The notes under the pieces: model-generated
What the model was told of the DNA's origin: nothing
The model's database searches: none
The model's input: the letters and a program-made list of their open reading frames with translations, nothing else
Source: Chrysochromulina parva
Lineage: Eukaryota; Haptophyta; Prymnesiales; Chrysochromulinaceae
Direction: 5' to 3'
DNA: 14,258 bases
Assembly: GCA_002887195.1 (NCBI GenBank)
Contig: PJAB01001469.1
Location: forward strand, 1 to 14,258
Program-made: the position numbers and the translations under genes
Part shown: positions 4,764 through 13,915 of the stretch, piece by piece
Layout: every line of letters begins with the position of its first letter
How positions within the stretch are numbered: position 1 is the stretch's first letter

Positions 4764-5684
4764 TCAGTCGAGCTCGTACAATAGCTTATCAGGCGCGGGC
4801 GTGGGCGCGGGTGCCGGTGCCGGCACGGTTGCCGGCGCCGGCGCCGGCGCGGGCGCCGGCGCGGGCGCTGCCTTGGCCGCGGGCACCTCGAGCCCAGGCC
4901 ATTCGCCACTGATCGCCTTCTCGAGCACGACCATCATGTTGTTATCGGCCGCGTCGTACCGGCAGCCGTCCACGTTGACCGTGCCCGCGAGCTGCAACTC
5001 CAGCTTGTGCGTGTGCGGCGCGGCGCCGCTGATGGGCTCCGAACGGAAGGTCATCGCGAGGCGGCGTGGCTCGAACTTTGCGTCGACCGAGTCGCTGATC
5101 ACCGAGGGCACCTGCAGGATGAGCGCGACGTATTGGTCGTTCTGGCGCCACTCGACGGGCACCTCGGCGGAGGCGGAGGCGGCAGTAGGCGGCGTGGCGA
5201 CCGCGGGCGCGATCGAGGATGCCGTGGGCTTTGACGGCGGCGGCGGCAACGGGGCGGGCGCCGAGGTAGCCGCTTTCGGGGGGGGCTCCGGGGCGGCAGG
5301 CTTGGCGGCGGGGTCGGGAGCCGGCGCAGGAGCTGGCACTGGCGCTGGCGCCGATGGGGGCGCGGTAGGCGGCGTCATCGGCGTGGGCGCGCTAGACACG
5401 GATGCGCGCGGCATGGTTAGGGTCAGGACGTGAGCCTTCTTGTCGAACTTGGCCGCCGCCTCCTCATCCTTCACCTTGTGCGGCAGCGCCATGTCAAGCT
5501 CCACGTCGCCCACAATCAGGTGCAAGCGCTCCGGGCTAATGTTCAGGTCGACCTCGCCGGCCTTGTTGACGAGGGGCAGCTCCACGCGCACGCAGACGCT
5601 ATCGTCGGAGACTGTAACCGAGTGCTGCGGCGGCGTCGGCATTTCGGGACAGGCAGGCGGCGGGAGGTGAGTCGCTTTCGTCAC
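4764..5684 (-). CDS. PIH1/Kintoun (DNAAF2)-like protein with two CS-like domains
   Basis: A 306-aa protein. Residues about 22-93 resemble the CS-like domain of PIH proteins: VCVRVELPLVNKAGEVDLNI, then LDMALPHKV, then AKFDKKAHVLTLTMPR. Residues about 175-262 form a second CS/p23-like domain (VEWRQNDQYVALILQVPSV, then a MTFRSEP strand, then NMMVVLEKAISGEWPG). This order matches the middle and end of Kintoun/DNAAF2, a cytoplasmic co-chaperone for axonemal dynein pre-assembly with Hsp70/90 clients. The N-terminal PIH1 domain is absent, and the 240 bp upstream before the tRNA does not encode it. The linker (94-172) and the tail (270-300) are Pro/Ala repeats. It ends with a double TGA TGA. The assignment is by pattern; another PIH-CS or p23-like co-chaperone is possible. 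Confidence 0.62.
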   Translation of the reverse strand: MTKATHLPPPACPEMPTPPQHSVTVSDDSVCVRVELPLVNKAGEVDLNISPERLHLIVGDVELDMALPHKVKDEEAAAKFDKKAHVLTLTMPRASVSSAPTPMTPPTAPPSAPAPVPAPAPAPDPAAKPAAPEPPPKAATSAPAPLPPPPSKPTASSIAPAVATPPTAASASAEVPVEWRQNDQYVALILQVPSVISDSVDAKFEPRRLAMTFRSEPISGAAPHTHKLELQLAGTVNVDGCRYDAADNNMMVVLEKAISGEWPGLEVPAAKAAPAPAPAPAPAPATVPAPAPAPTPAPDKLLYELD

Positions 5685-5923: not shown

Positions 5924-5996
5924 GCCCGTGTAGCTCAGTGGATAGAGCGTTGACCTCCTAAGTCAAGGGTCGCGGGTTCGACCCCCGTCTCGGGTG
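5924..5996 (+). tRNA. tRNA-Arg (anticodon CCU)
   Basis: A 73-nt cloverleaf can be drawn in full. The acceptor is GCCCGTG / CTCGGGT plus discriminator G, the D stem GCTC/GAGC, the anticodon stem TTGAC/GTCAA with loop CTCCTAA (anticodon CCT at 5957-5959), the variable loop GGGTC, and the T stem GCGGG/CCCGT with loop TTCGACC. It reads AGG codons. The A box (TAGCTCAGTGG, 5931-5941) and B box (GGTTCGACCCC) are intact, and a T-run terminator follows. There is no intron and no encoded CCA, as in eukaryotic nuclear genes. Oddities are G1-U72 and G49-U65 wobbles and one U6-U67 mismatch in the acceptor. Whether it is functional or a repeat-associated copy is open because its 3' end is tandemly duplicated downstream. 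Confidence 0.93.
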
Positions 5997-6129
5997 TGAT
6001 TTTTATGTGCGGGACCCCCGTCTCGGGTGTGATTTTTATGTGCGGGACCCCCGTCTCGGGTGTGATTTTTATGTGCGGGACCCCCGTCTCGGGTGTGATT
6101 TTTATGTGCGGGACCCCCGTCTCGGGTGT
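5981..6129 (+). repeat. 33-bp tandem array built from the tRNA-Arg 3' end
   Basis: The 17-mer ACCCCCGTCTCGGGTGT begins at 5981 (inside the tRNA T loop), 6014, 6047, 6080 and 6113, exactly 33 bp apart, and the bases between copies are identical. Each unit holds the 3' T-stem strand, the 3' acceptor strand, the discriminator base, the trailer with the T5 terminator, and then TATGTGCGGG. Compared with the tRNA, the repeated GCGGG-ACCCCCG lacks the four loop bases TTCG, so each unit can still form a shortened T-stem hairpin. Confidence 0.95.
6000..6004 (+). terminator. RNA polymerase III terminator of tRNA-Arg
   Basis: A run of five T residues starts 4 nt after the discriminator base, the usual position for Pol III termination. 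The same T-run is copied in each unit of the downstream tandem array. Confidence 0.8.
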
Positions 6130-8850: not shown

Positions 8851-9121
8851 CCGGTTTGCCTTCGTTCATCGTTGCGTGCGGTGTCCGTTCTGTCCGAGCG
8901 TTTGAGTAAAACGGTAAAAGTGACTTTGACAGAAAAATTGGGTTAAACGCGTAAAAGTTTCCCCTTTGACTTCGAGAGCGCCGGTTCGTGTTCTAAGCAC
9001 TAAGGTCAGGTCTAGCACCCCGGTCCCGGGCCACTCGGCGCGTGATCCGTGACGAGCTGAAACGCCCGCAGGTAGCGGCCCGTGATCTTTTTGAGAGTTG
9101 AGCTTTGAGGTCCGGCCCGCC
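8851..9121. other. Spacer without recognisable gene
   Basis: An AT-richer stretch at 8890-8965 (AAACGGTAAAAGTGAC and similar) is followed by GC-rich sequence. No coding-like frame with recognisable motifs was found on either strand. Confidence 0.4.
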
Positions 9122-9215
9122 CCGTCTCCAATTGGCGAATCGCGCCCGTCTCGGGTGATTTTTGTCGTGTTGAGGTCCGACTCACCGTCTCGGGTGATTT
9201 TCGTTGTATCGTGTT
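9122..9215 (+). repeat. Diverged repeats resembling the tRNA-Arg 3'-end unit
   Basis: CCGTCTCGGGTGATTTT occurs at 9146-9162 and 9185-9201 (39 bp apart), and a weaker CCGTCTCC at 9122-9129. Both strong copies are followed within about 15 bp by GTGTTGAG. The shared core CCGTCTCGGGTG is the T-stem/acceptor 3' end of the tRNA-Arg at 5924-5996, followed as there by a T-run. Confidence 0.6.
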
Positions 9216-9795
9216 GAGTTCCCGAGCCCGGAAGCCCCCATGCCCGGGTCTCCGGTATGATGCCATTCCGAGCTCCACATGGACATGGCACATGCGCCGG
9301 CGTTTTGAGCCGCGGAACTCCGCTCTCCGGGTCTCGGGTGAAATATTTGTTGCTTTTGAGCCCCCGTCAAGCCCCCGGGACCCTTAAAAACGGAACGGAA
9401 CACGGTCGAGGACACGAGAGAGCGAACGACGCGGAAACGCGCGAAGCGTCACGTACTCGGTCGCACGGTCGCCTCCCAGCTCGCGCCATTCCGCCCGGCC
9501 GCCGATAGCTGAATCTATAATCACCCGACCTTATCATCACTTGCGCACAGCATTCAACGGCCGCCACACAATCTCTGCCCAATCTCGCGCCCCGCATGGC
9601 CGGCGAATCCAACACTGCTGCGTCTGGTCGTCGTGCCTGTCGCTCTCGCGCACCGGACACACTCACCCGGACAGTGTATGGACCTCCCGGCGCAATTCAT
9701 CGCGGGTGTTTCGTCGAGTGGCTTCATCTCTGTTGGCAAGCATGGAAGGTGCAGCAGCGTGACCAGCCGCGGCGAAGCGCGCGGGTGTGTGTGTC
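9216..9795. other. 580-bp region downstream of the GST-MsrA gene, its probable 3' UTR and spacer
   Basis: No recognisable gene on either strand. On the minus strand this would contain the 3' UTR of the GST-MsrA gene, where a eukaryotic SECIS element would be expected. By eye I looked for ATGA, a loop AA and a distal GA on the minus strand. The best fold has arms at plus 9650-9656 and 9687-9693 with TCAT at 9697-9700 (ATGA on the minus strand), and its apical loop lacks the AA. It is not convincing. Confidence 0.4.
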
Positions 9796-11121
9796 CTACA
9801 AGCCCCATGCGGTGCCCGGCCCGCCTAGCGAGTCCCCGCCCTCGTTCTCACTCCAGTCGGGAAAGGGCTTGTTGTCGCGCACAAAGTGCTGATGATACTC
9901 TTCGGCGAGGTGCCAAGCACTCGGTGGGAGCACAGGAACGAGCTCCGCCATACCGGCCTCAGCCAAGACCGCCTTTGCTGTGCGAGTCTGCACGCCATCC
10001 CGCGCCCAGATCGCAATGCGAGTTTGCGCACGGCATAAGAGAGGGGATTCGCCCGCCATCGACGTGCCATTCGTTGGCCTCAGCCGTTGTACTCGTGCGT
10101 CCTGCGTGATACGGCGCACAAGCGCTTCGTAGCTCAGGACAGCCGGGTCGAATTCGAGCCGCATCGCCTCGGTATGTGTGTTGCGCTGGCTGCACACGTA
10201 TTCGTACGTGAGGGGTAAGTCGGCCGACGGGTCGCCGTCTCGATCGCCTCCAGTGTAACCCACCCACGAGTTGATCACGCCAGGGAGCTGTGCATACTCG
10301 AGCTGCGGCTGGTGGAATCATCCGAGGCCCACCGTGGCCGTCTCCGTCGGAAGATGCGCCTCGCCAGGCGCACCCGGGCTCACATGGCAGACGTAGTACT
10401 GCCGTGCGGCTGTCGCCATCTCGGCATGTCCTGCCGTCGTCGCCATGACCGACGGTCGCGCCGCCACGGCCTTCATCCATGCGGCAGTGCGCGTGAGGCT
10501 CCGCTGCCGGCACAAGTCGAGCACATCGAACCCTCGCCAATACGGGAGCATCGCGAGCATGCGTTCAACCCAAGGTGCAGCCACGCATTCCGCGAGAGAG
10601 AAGCTGCTCCCCAGAAGGAACACTGCCGGGCACGCCTCCTGTCAGCTCAACTTCATGTCCGCCATCCAAAGCCTATCTTCTACGGCTTGCAACGACTCCA
10701 TGAGCCCAACGCAGCCGAATCTCGCCTCATCCTCGGACTCAGCCCCAAGCACCGCGTAGTACGCAGGCTCAACGGACTCAGTCCAAAGCTTGACGAAGGA
10801 TTCAATTTCCGGCGCACGGGACGCTGGAAGCAGGTCCACCTCGTCGGCCTTGTACGTGTGTGCAATGTGGCGGGCAATCTCGACGCTTTCGCTGATAACG
10901 TTGCCATCATCTAGCTCAAGCAATGGCACCTTTCCAGTCGGAGATAGTGCAAGAAATGCCTCCGGCTTGTCGCGCAGGTCGATGAGTGCGTGCTCAAACG
11001 AAGTTTGAGTTTCGAGCAGTGCGATCCACGGCCGTTGTGCAAATGGGCAGATGCCGCTGTTGAACAAGCGCAGCGCCTCTGCGAGCGGTAAACCGACCAA
11101 TAGCAACGCGTTCACTCTCAT
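9796..11121 (-). CDS. Predicted GST-MsrA fusion selenoprotein (TGA at the MsrA active site)
   Basis: From ATG 11119-11121 to TAG 9796-9798 the frame has 441 sense positions and only two interruptions, both TGA. Residues 1-16 look like a signal or leader. A GST N-terminal domain follows: GICPFAQRPWIAL with Cys25, then GKVPLLELDDG and ISES. The GST C-terminal domain follows, with VFLLGSSFSLAEC and AVAARPSVMATT. TGA at 10642-10644 (position 160) lies between these domains. TGA at 10318-10320 (position 268) is preceded by ATVGLG and followed by FHQPQLEYAQLPGV, VGYTGG, TYEYVCSQRNTHTEAMRLEFDP and AEEYHQHF, the MsrA series. Catalytic Cys to PGV is spaced exactly as in MsrA (11 residues between), so the TGA replaces that Cys; the usual Trp after Phe is His. 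MsrA reduces methionine-S-sulfoxide, and Sec forms exist in algae such as Chlamydomonas. Alternatives: separate broken genes or sequence error. Confidence 0.68.
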
Positions 11122-11599: not shown

Positions 11600-12646
11600 T
11601 TACGCGGTGGCGGCGCGGGATCGGCTTCCAATACCGAGCGCTCGTTTCAGGGCGTCGGAGGCGAGGGCCCAGAGCGCCTTTGCGGGGTTCCCGTCGAGCT
11701 CGTCAAACAGCTTGATGTTCAACGCGAACACGAGATTCGCCTCATCGACGATCTCCTGCTTCTGCTTGTCTGACAGCTCGAGCGCGTTGAGCTGCGTGTA
11801 CCATTCTTCAATGAAAGGCTTCGCAGCAGGAATCTCGTCGAATTGGTAAAAGGCCGTGCCGCGGCCGTCGTCGAGAGAAAGACTCCTCCGCGCCATGCCG
11901 CCCATCATCTGCCCGCCGAACAGATCGCCGAGGTAGCGCGTGTACATGTGCGCTATGAGCAGGTGAGGCTGCGTGCCTGCGATCTTGCGCACTCGAGAGG
12001 CATACTCCTGCGTGGCCGGCGACGGCCGGACGGTACTGCGCCACTCCGTGCCAAAGTAGTAAGCCATGTCCTCCTCAAGTGCAGGCATGCGACGCAGCGA
12101 GTTGTAGTCGAGAGCCTTAACGCCGGCGTCTTTGGTCTCGTCAAAGGACTTCTCCATGGCCTCGTACACAAAGTACAGCGAGCACACCAGCTGGCTGAAG
12201 GCTGTTTTGGTGGCGATGCCTCGGAAGAAACCGGTGACAAAGGCGGTATTCTCGGCAACTGAGTGCGACTTGCGTGTCCCGTCATCCAGAGCGAGGGCAA
12301 GGCCAGCCGCGCGTGCCGATGTCTCTGCCACGGGCTTAATCTCCATCGCCTGTGAGACACGGCTTTGCTGCTCCTTCTTCCCAATGCTCTGCATGCGAAC
12401 CTGTGAGACACGGATCTGTTGCGCCGGTTCGGCAGCCGTCGTCGAAATAGCTGCTGGCTCGGCATCTGCAGTCCCAAAGGGAGTTGGGTTCAGCTCAGGC
12501 ACTGCGCTCCATACGAATCCTTCTGGAGGCATAATGGTGCTCATCCTGACCTGCATCGTTCGGCCCATGCTGACCTGCACCGCCGGGCGCGCCAACATCG
12601 GCGTCCGCGCGTAGGATTGTGTTGCCAGGAGAGAGATGGCCAGCAT
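11600..12646 (-). CDS. Plastid-type heme oxygenase
   Basis: 348 aa. It opens heme to biliverdin, CO and iron using ferredoxin, the first step towards bilins. The catalytic domain spans about 112-335. RKSHSVAENTAFVTGFFRG carries the proximal heme ligand His128, YFVYEAMEKSFDE follows, and the distal-helix signature is HMYTRYLGDLFGGQMMGGMA (233-252). GTAFYQFDEIP and VDEANLVFALNIKLFDEL complete the red-lineage/cyanobacterial HO pattern. Phe replaces the Ser usual in GDLSGGQ. The first 110 residues are a leader: a hydrophobic start MLAISLLATQS fits a signal peptide for a complex plastid, and the rest is a Ser/Ala/Met-rich transit and linker region. The linker has an internal repeat (RVSQ twice, with a repeated CCTGTGAGACACGG in the DNA). 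It ends in TAA and is head-to-head with the CpcT-like gene. No intron. Confidence 0.95.
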   Translation of the reverse strand: MLAISLLATQSYARTPMLARPAVQVSMGRTMQVRMSTIMPPEGFVWSAVPELNPTPFGTADAEPAAISTTAAEPAQQIRVSQVRMQSIGKKEQQSRVSQAMEIKPVAETSARAAGLALALDDGTRKSHSVAENTAFVTGFFRGIATKTAFSQLVCSLYFVYEAMEKSFDETKDAGVKALDYNSLRRMPALEEDMAYYFGTEWRSTVRPSPATQEYASRVRKIAGTQPHLLIAHMYTRYLGDLFGGQMMGGMARRSLSLDDGRGTAFYQFDEIPAAKPFIEEWYTQLNALELSDKQKQEIVDEANLVFALNIKLFDELDGNPAKALWALASDALKRALGIGSRSRAATA

Positions 12647-13066: not shown

Positions 13067-13915
13067 ATGCCGCGTTCAGCGATGTTGGCACGGATTCAAG
13101 TGCTTCTCCTGGCATCCTCCACCGCTGCGGGCTGGGTAGCAGACCGTGTCGCAGCGAGCATCGTTGGCCGCCCCTCAGCGATCCGCGGTCCGGCATCATA
13201 CGCGCCCATAATGACCGTATCTTTGTCTCGCACGAGCCTTGCCGCAGCAGCTGCTGCAGCCTCAACCCCGGAGAGCTTGCATGCCTCGAGCGTCCTCTCG
13301 CGCTTCCTGAGCCAGTTCCGTGGCCACTTTGACAACCATGAGCAGGTCGAGACCGAGAAACTTGCGGGTCTCACGCCTCGTGAGGGCGGTGGCCATGAGC
13401 ACATCCATTGCAGCCTGCAGCCGGTCACGCTCCACGACCGGCCGCAGGGCCAATACGTGCTCGCCTCGTACTACTTCAACGGCGACCCGGACGCCGTGTT
13501 CCGTGAGCGCCTTTACGCATTCGACGAGCTCCCTCGCGACCCCCAGTTCGGCACGTGTGTGCGCATGCGCATCTACAAGATGCGGCTTAGCACTGCTGAA
13601 CGGCTGCGCGCGGGCATGACGCTGAACGATGTCGCGTGGAGCGCGGCAGAGGACTTGCACGCGTCCTTGCACGTGCCCGAGGCGGACGTCTTCTGGCGAT
13701 GGTGCGGCGAGCGCTTCGAGGGCTCGATGCGCACCCAGTCGATCGAGATCATCTCGGAGCGATCTGGCCGTGCCATCCGGGTGCGCGACGACGTGGCGCT
13801 CTGGCAGGACGCCCTGTGGGTCAACGACCGGGCCACAGACGCCGAGACAGGCGCGTACGTCTACGGCAACATTCACGACATACCATACAAGATGGCACGC
13901 GTCAACGCCGAGTAA
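13067..13915 (+). CDS. CpcT/CpeT (CRL-like) chromophore-lyase family protein
   Basis: 282 aa. The family domain spans about 78-280. It shows FRGHFDNHEQVE at 84-95, HIHCSLQPV, YVLASYYFNGDPDAVFRERLYAF at 130-152, VRMRIYKM at 165-172, and the diagnostic end DALWVNDRATDAETGAYVYGNIHDIPYKMARV, the counterpart of the DRG...WGS...F pattern. CpcT attaches phycocyanobilin to phycobiliproteins; the plant relative CRUMPLED LEAF (CRL) sits in the plastid envelope and affects plastid division. Residues 1-80 are a leader: MLARIQVLLLASSTAAGW looks like a signal peptide and is followed by a Ser/Ala/Arg-rich transit-like stretch, consistent with a complex plastid. A Cys conserved in CpcT before the last segment is not obvious. 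A second ATG lies at 13082. It ends in TAA. The bilin lyase role is inferred; a CRL-like role is equally possible. Confidence 0.82.
   Translation: MPRSAMLARIQVLLLASSTAAGWVADRVAASIVGRPSAIRGPASYAPIMTVSLSRTSLAAAAAAASTPESLHASSVLSRFLSQFRGHFDNHEQVETEKLAGLTPREGGGHEHIHCSLQPVTLHDRPQGQYVLASYYFNGDPDAVFRERLYAFDELPRDPQFGTCVRMRIYKMRLSTAERLRAGMTLNDVAWSAAEDLHASLHVPEADVFWRWCGERFEGSMRTQSIEIISERSGRAIRVRDDVALWQDALWVNDRATDAETGAYVYGNIHDIPYKMARVNAE

Follow-up and report, generated by a model that had tools for sequence, protein, structure and literature searches.

The minus-strand frame at positions 9796 to 11121 of the DNA analysed here (the window: 14,258 nucleotides, one contig of the 45 Mb, 2199-contig genome assembly of Chrysochromulina parva) is a predicted GST-MsrA selenoprotein gene. 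We consider it probable that its product is a single chain of a GST and an MsrA-like domain with selenocysteine (Sec) at residue 268, which would be regenerated by a glutathione relay via the GST. Taken by itself, the presence of Sec at position 268 of such a chain is likely, and we state it with good confidence. The fusion belongs to a kind already described from another haptophyte, and the gene is probably a new relative of it.

Results and Discussion

Translation of the minus strand yields 441 residues from ATG to TAG (9796..11121), with the TGA codons at residues 160 and 268 read as residues and no other stop in the frame. The original prediction of one frame running through a GST and then an MsrA, free of TAA and TAG until 9796, was confirmed by translation and Pfam. 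Codon usage is coding-like in all three segments (+0.24 bits per codon up to the first TGA, +0.15 from there to the second and +0.17 beyond it). Negative values were obtained for the other two sense frames and for every sense frame of either flank; in the first segment, two antisense frames reach small positive values (+0.12 and +0.01). Among 20,000 first-order Markov sequences of matched length and composition, 1.6% were likewise free of TAA and TAG. Since an open frame alone is weak evidence in such GC-rich DNA, the case for a gene is carried by homology. A global reassignment of TGA was considered and is unlikely, because TGA terminates other open reading frames, among them 4764-5684 and the SepSecS frame. 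The former (minus strand) encodes a CS-domain protein, whose Pro-Ala-rich stretches lie over a tandem repeat of the GGCGCG type at 4792-4868.

The N-terminal part, residues 16-247 (10381..11076, minus strand), is a GST domain. Pfam matches GST_N_2 (4.6e-18) and GST_C_2 (3.5e-06) were obtained in the fusion frame, and a sequence search of the PDB, an AlphaFold2 model (pLDDT 86) and Foldseek assign the domain as omega/DHAR-like, by fold also tau-like. The GST fold carries a Cys-type active site (CPF.Q), predicted from the alignment to be Cys25 of CPFAQR (11047..11049), the counterpart of a TGA codon in the paralogue L003 described below. GSTs of the omega/DHAR type are glutaredoxin-like. The last GST helix ends at residue 247 and the first MsrA strand starts at 260 in the models, leaving about 12-13 residues between the folded domains; the gap between the Pfam matches of GST and PMSR amounts to 42 residues. 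Neither value agrees with the linker of about 35 residues proposed earlier.

The C-terminal part, residues 261-418 (9868..10341, minus strand), exceeds the Pfam cut-off for PMSR clearly (1.1e-16, 61.9 bits vs 23.7), and the match spans residue 268. The AlphaFold2 model of this domain (pLDDT 81) resembles a solved MsrA with a Foldseek E value of 3.1e-11. The NCBI equivalog cut-off for MsrA, however, is missed (TIGR00401, 57.7 bits vs 108.1). The chain closes with the tail GPGTAWGL (9799..9822). It is near-identical in 19 of 20 proteins of the subfamily introduced below, where GPGT is followed by AWGL or a sequence close to it.

The second TGA (10318..10320, minus strand) lies exactly at the catalytic position of MsrA, as had been predicted. 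ATVGLG stands directly before residue 268, and the 11 residues FHQPQLEYAQL and then PGV come after it; in the alignment, 9/9 rows of Cys-type MsrA have the GCFW Cys at this place. Around this position the substrate pocket is altered. Tyr306 (10204..10206) and Glu318 (10168..10170), both active-site residues, are retained in 27/27 rows, and Phe269 and His410 are kept as well. His270 (10312..10314) stands at the place of a Trp found in 9/9 Cys-type rows, a column that is comparable for the window gene alone since the relatives start later. Thr367 (10021..10023) replaces a second Tyr; here the subfamily shows 16 Thr and 2 Gln in 18/18 rows as opposed to Tyr in 9/9 Cys-type rows. The Tyr that follows the HQ motif is changed to Phe413; pocket residues were mapped by motif position on the Cys-type rows. 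With Trp and one Tyr substituted, the full set of Phe, Trp, two Tyr and Glu is incomplete, and we therefore use the name MsrA-like. A Cys after the HQ motif occurs in none of the 18 subfamily rows (one of them shortened at its end) compared to eight of nine Cys-type rows.

To place the MsrA-like part, databases were searched with it, giving 30 proteins: a subfamily of 20 (P0004-P0023) and 10 remoter MsrA proteins with Cys in GCFW. All 20 subfamily members are predicted open reading frames that start downstream of residue 268, and the Cys form was seen in none of them. Since a stop codon at or after the active site would make predicted reading frames start downstream, as they do in 20/20 relatives, we infer that the relatives too may carry TGA at the catalytic site. 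A search for the DNA around these relatives in viral and genome collections found none. With every database frame beginning past the catalytic residue, the subfamily's active site does not show in the current annotation of P0004-P0023; the catalytic portion of proteins of this type is thus missed by gene callers.

The search with the whole protein returned only two GSTs among the best 7994 candidates. One of these, P0002, is a GST with 49% identity over residues 13-253, in which the linker RxYYVxHVSPGAPG is kept and residue 160 falls into a gap. A GST domain was listed in 0 of 10 MsrA proteins of fusion length from the search with the MsrA part. A Cys-containing homologue that keeps the GST fusion, which the original prediction had proposed to look for, was not found in the protein searches (the whole-protein search covering the best 7994 candidates) or in the genome search. 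Intact separate GST and MsrA genes, named there as evidence against the fusion, were likewise not found for this MsrA subfamily in the same searches.

Predicted selenocysteine use in the genome

The genome contains a tRNA-Sec, with the anticodon TCA and 70.7 bits against a cut-off of 47, and SepSecS (1.9e-124). SelD gave 0 matches in the genome and the eEFSec domain one sub-threshold match (25 vs 27 bits) in low-complexity sequence, L038, which was rejected as eEFSec for that reason; the assembly may be incomplete. Apart from the window gene, 16 genes carry TGA at catalytic positions, namely eight GPx, four Rdx, three MsrA and one GST. Eight of the 11 GPx matches have one TGA, in each case at the NVASxUG position, and all four Rdx matches, which include two near-identical copies, have it at the CxxU position. 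TGA is found in five of 10 MsrA matches: in four at the active site (the window gene and three others) and in the fifth near the C-terminal end. SECIS-like hairpins were observed downstream of the 15 GPx, Rdx and MsrA genes among these 16 predicted selenoprotein genes (L014-L017, L019-L022, L024-L027, L002, L006, L031). The GST, L003 (C102:8684-9355), is a stand-alone protein with TGA at the catalytic Cys position (TSRTUPYAQR) and is predicted to be a Sec-GST; the SECIS candidate that follows it is weak (score 27.5). None of the 20 genome matches to GST_N_2 contains a stop within the matched part; the TGA of the C102 gene lies just outside.

Sec268 is well supported because the genome holds tRNA-Sec and SepSecS, because 16 other genes have TGA at catalytic positions and because no Cys form occurs among 20 relatives. 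On these grounds the proposal that TGA is read as Sec and joins GST and MsrA has good support, whereas the SECIS element expected downstream was not found.

Search for a SECIS element

The 3' flank (9301..9795, minus strand) was searched for SECIS elements and yielded none above background. The scan looked for hairpins of the form AUGA ... AA ... GA that are flanked by a helix. Sister genes served as positives (740 nt scanned) and pieces taken upstream or from the antisense strand as background (520 nt), compared to 525 nt for the window gene. Best scores downstream of the 16 sister genes are 26.6-45.5. Of the 146 background pieces, 34% attain a score of 23.8 and at least 15 a score of 27.5, with a maximum of 34.7. 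The window gene attains 23.8 in 525 nt, below 16/16 sister loci and within background, and 26.9 within 1.5 kb. The separation of positives and background is partly circular, since 14 positives were chosen by the same kind of scan, and the four lowest positives (26.6-28.9, including L003 and L031) fall in the background range.

Rfam gave no SECIS in 8900-10000, and at gathering thresholds only a tRNA in the whole window; SECIS_1 had no match genome-wide, where the control was silent too. This silence is not counted against the fusion gene, since Rfam was equally empty for 7/7 sister loci tried. A stable hairpin at 9585-9712 (z -1.78, a stability reached by 12 of 200 shuffles) does not qualify as SECIS, because its inner helix is short and an apical AA is missing. 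Other features of the window include short repeated motifs like TCACCCGAGAC at 9100-9400, noted by eye downstream of the fusion gene, and a perfect 33-base tandem repeat of 4.5 copies at 5980-6129 that adjoins the tRNA gene 5924-5996. No SECIS can be claimed for the fusion gene. An intron in the 3' UTR, a divergent SECIS or its loss are possible reasons. The label is kept at "predicted selenoprotein" on this account, the sequence scanned being genomic flank.

The missing SECIS speaks most strongly against a working gene. It favours a decaying copy, i.e., a once-working Sec fusion that was disabled by UGA 160 and has lost or damaged its SECIS, so that full-length protein would no longer be produced. 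The higher scores of 16/16 sister genes and the location of UGA 160 at a non-conserved place fit such a history. Against it stand 441 codons without a frameshift, TAA or TAG, the coding-like codon use of all three segments, and the metagenomic relative P0004, which is 94% identical, has 93 member sequences and an intact C-terminal part. We regard decay as unlikely.

The first TGA (10642..10644, minus strand), touched on only in passing in the original prediction, requires separate consideration. Residue 160 lies within the GST C-terminal domain, in a non-conserved loop after the predicted helix 130-159, and the codon is itself not conserved and without an evident catalytic role. An intron at this place is unlikely: VE.RL.M and FSLAECVAAP on either side are conserved in P0002, so that only a tiny intron could be accommodated. 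An assembly or sequencing error would mean a sense codon in truth at residue 160, less likely at 268, and hence one Sec or none. At 160 this agrees with the one close GST relative, which has neither Sec nor Cys there, and no counter-evidence was obtained; at 268, in contrast, the same error would need to recur in 20 relatives. As an account of the gene, error appears improbable. The chances that UGA 160 encodes Sec are about even, the alternatives being a damaging change and an assembly error.

That the locus encodes two proteins, a GST ending at a TGA and an MsrA-like protein from a downstream start, is suggested by the downstream starts of the relatives' database reading frames but is very improbable, given that the first listed start is a GTG at 10278, unlikely in a eukaryote, that the MsrA-like product would be without its catalytic residue, and that the GST would end already at residue 160, inside its own C-terminal domain.

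Proposed mechanism

For the single GST-MsrA-like selenoprotein chain we infer Sec insertion, a reducing relay and a substrate as follows. The tRNA-Sec would decode UGA 268, perhaps UGA 160 likewise, directed by a SECIS that the scans did not locate. The selenol of Sec268 may then attack a sulfoxide substrate, and the oxidised Sec268 would be reduced by glutathione. Glutathione is predicted as the reductant because the MsrA part is without a C-terminal Cys that could resolve the oxidised Sec. The fused omega/DHAR-like GST, with Cys25 in CPFAQR, could serve as a built-in glutaredoxin-like reductant for Sec268; the Sec-MsrA literature and the glutaredoxin-likeness of omega/DHAR GSTs are the basis for this relay. 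The altered pocket suggests that the substrate may be other than protein methionine sulfoxide.

A more far-reaching version, which we find doubtful, is a self-contained, glutathione-fuelled selenoenzyme. The GST would act as a tethered glutaredoxin and the Sec-only MsrA-like domain on another sulfoxide, e.g., of the dimethyl-sulfoxide type in marine algae. Since termination at UGA 268 would still release a complete GST, how much plain GST is made relative to GST-reductase would depend on the selenium supply.

The neighbours of the fusion gene include a heme oxygenase gene (11600-12646, minus strand; Pfam 6e-61) and a gene for a bilin lyase of the CpeT/CpcT-like type (13067-13915, plus strand; 1.5e-15), possibly a bilin pair adjoining it.

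Comparison with known systems

The fusion had been thought undescribed. According to the relevant passages of Jiang et al. 2020 (BMC Genomics 21:699, PMC7539508), two selenoprotein genes are fused as GST-MSRA in the haptophyte Emiliania huxleyi; the fusion has 4 exons and EST support and is presented there as the first of its sort. Titles found in our literature searches named no further GST-MSRA fusion. The GST-MsrA arrangement is thus of a described kind, and the window gene is probably a new member. Both share the order of GST and MSRA in one chain. Compared with the 4 exons in those passages, the frame of the window gene needs no intron. Set against the E. huxleyi fusion as given there, it has Cys in the GST active site and an additional TGA at residue 160; it thereby has TGA in both domains, the one in the GST lying away from the active site. 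The GST Cys active site, the extra TGA and an MsrA subfamily without the pocket Tyr and the C-terminal Cys are apparently its particulars.

GSTs of the omega and dehydroascorbate-reductase classes (e.g., 6srb, 5d9v, 1eem) show the same CPF.QR Cys-type active site and fold but, unlike the window gene, no MsrA fusion. The Sec-MsrA paralogues of the same genome (C878, C1766, C805) carry TGA at the same catalytic position (GUFW). They have no GST match in the genome searches made here, keep the Tyr after Gln at the pocket position, in contrast to the window gene, and show downstream SECIS scores of 28.9-39.0, above that of the latter.

A parallel in catalytic make-up is the MsrA of Clostridium oremlandii, a selenoprotein of the 1-Cys type (PMC4333827; 4lwj, 4u66), to which the MsrA domain model corresponds with a Foldseek E value of 5.5e-09. 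According to that paper, the enzyme contains a single Sec but no Cys, and thioredoxin does not recycle it; as predicted for the window gene, it combines a catalytic Sec with the lack of a C-terminal resolving Cys. Its pocket is described there as consisting of the hydrophilic residues Tyr47, Glu55 and Tyr90 and the hydrophobic residues Phe17, Trp18, His137 and Tyr140. GCFWG and Tyr90 in C. oremlandii stand against GUFHQ and Thr367 in the window gene, by motif position, as the C. oremlandii sequence was not part of the alignment. As described, the clostridial enzyme is without GST and has a C-terminal helical domain, which Pfam does not show in the window gene. Glutaredoxin/glutathione can regenerate the Clostridium Sec-MsrA and a red-algal MsrA, as stated in the pertinent part of PMC6316033.

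With the window gene, a second GST-MsrA selenoprotein fusion joins the one from E. huxleyi, and its MsrA half is linked with a broader subfamily. The genome with its 16 other predicted recoded genes is also a source of algal SECIS candidates, including the seven loci for which Rfam was blank. The haptophyte fusion makes it possible to test whether a fused GST recycles a Sec reductase with glutathione.
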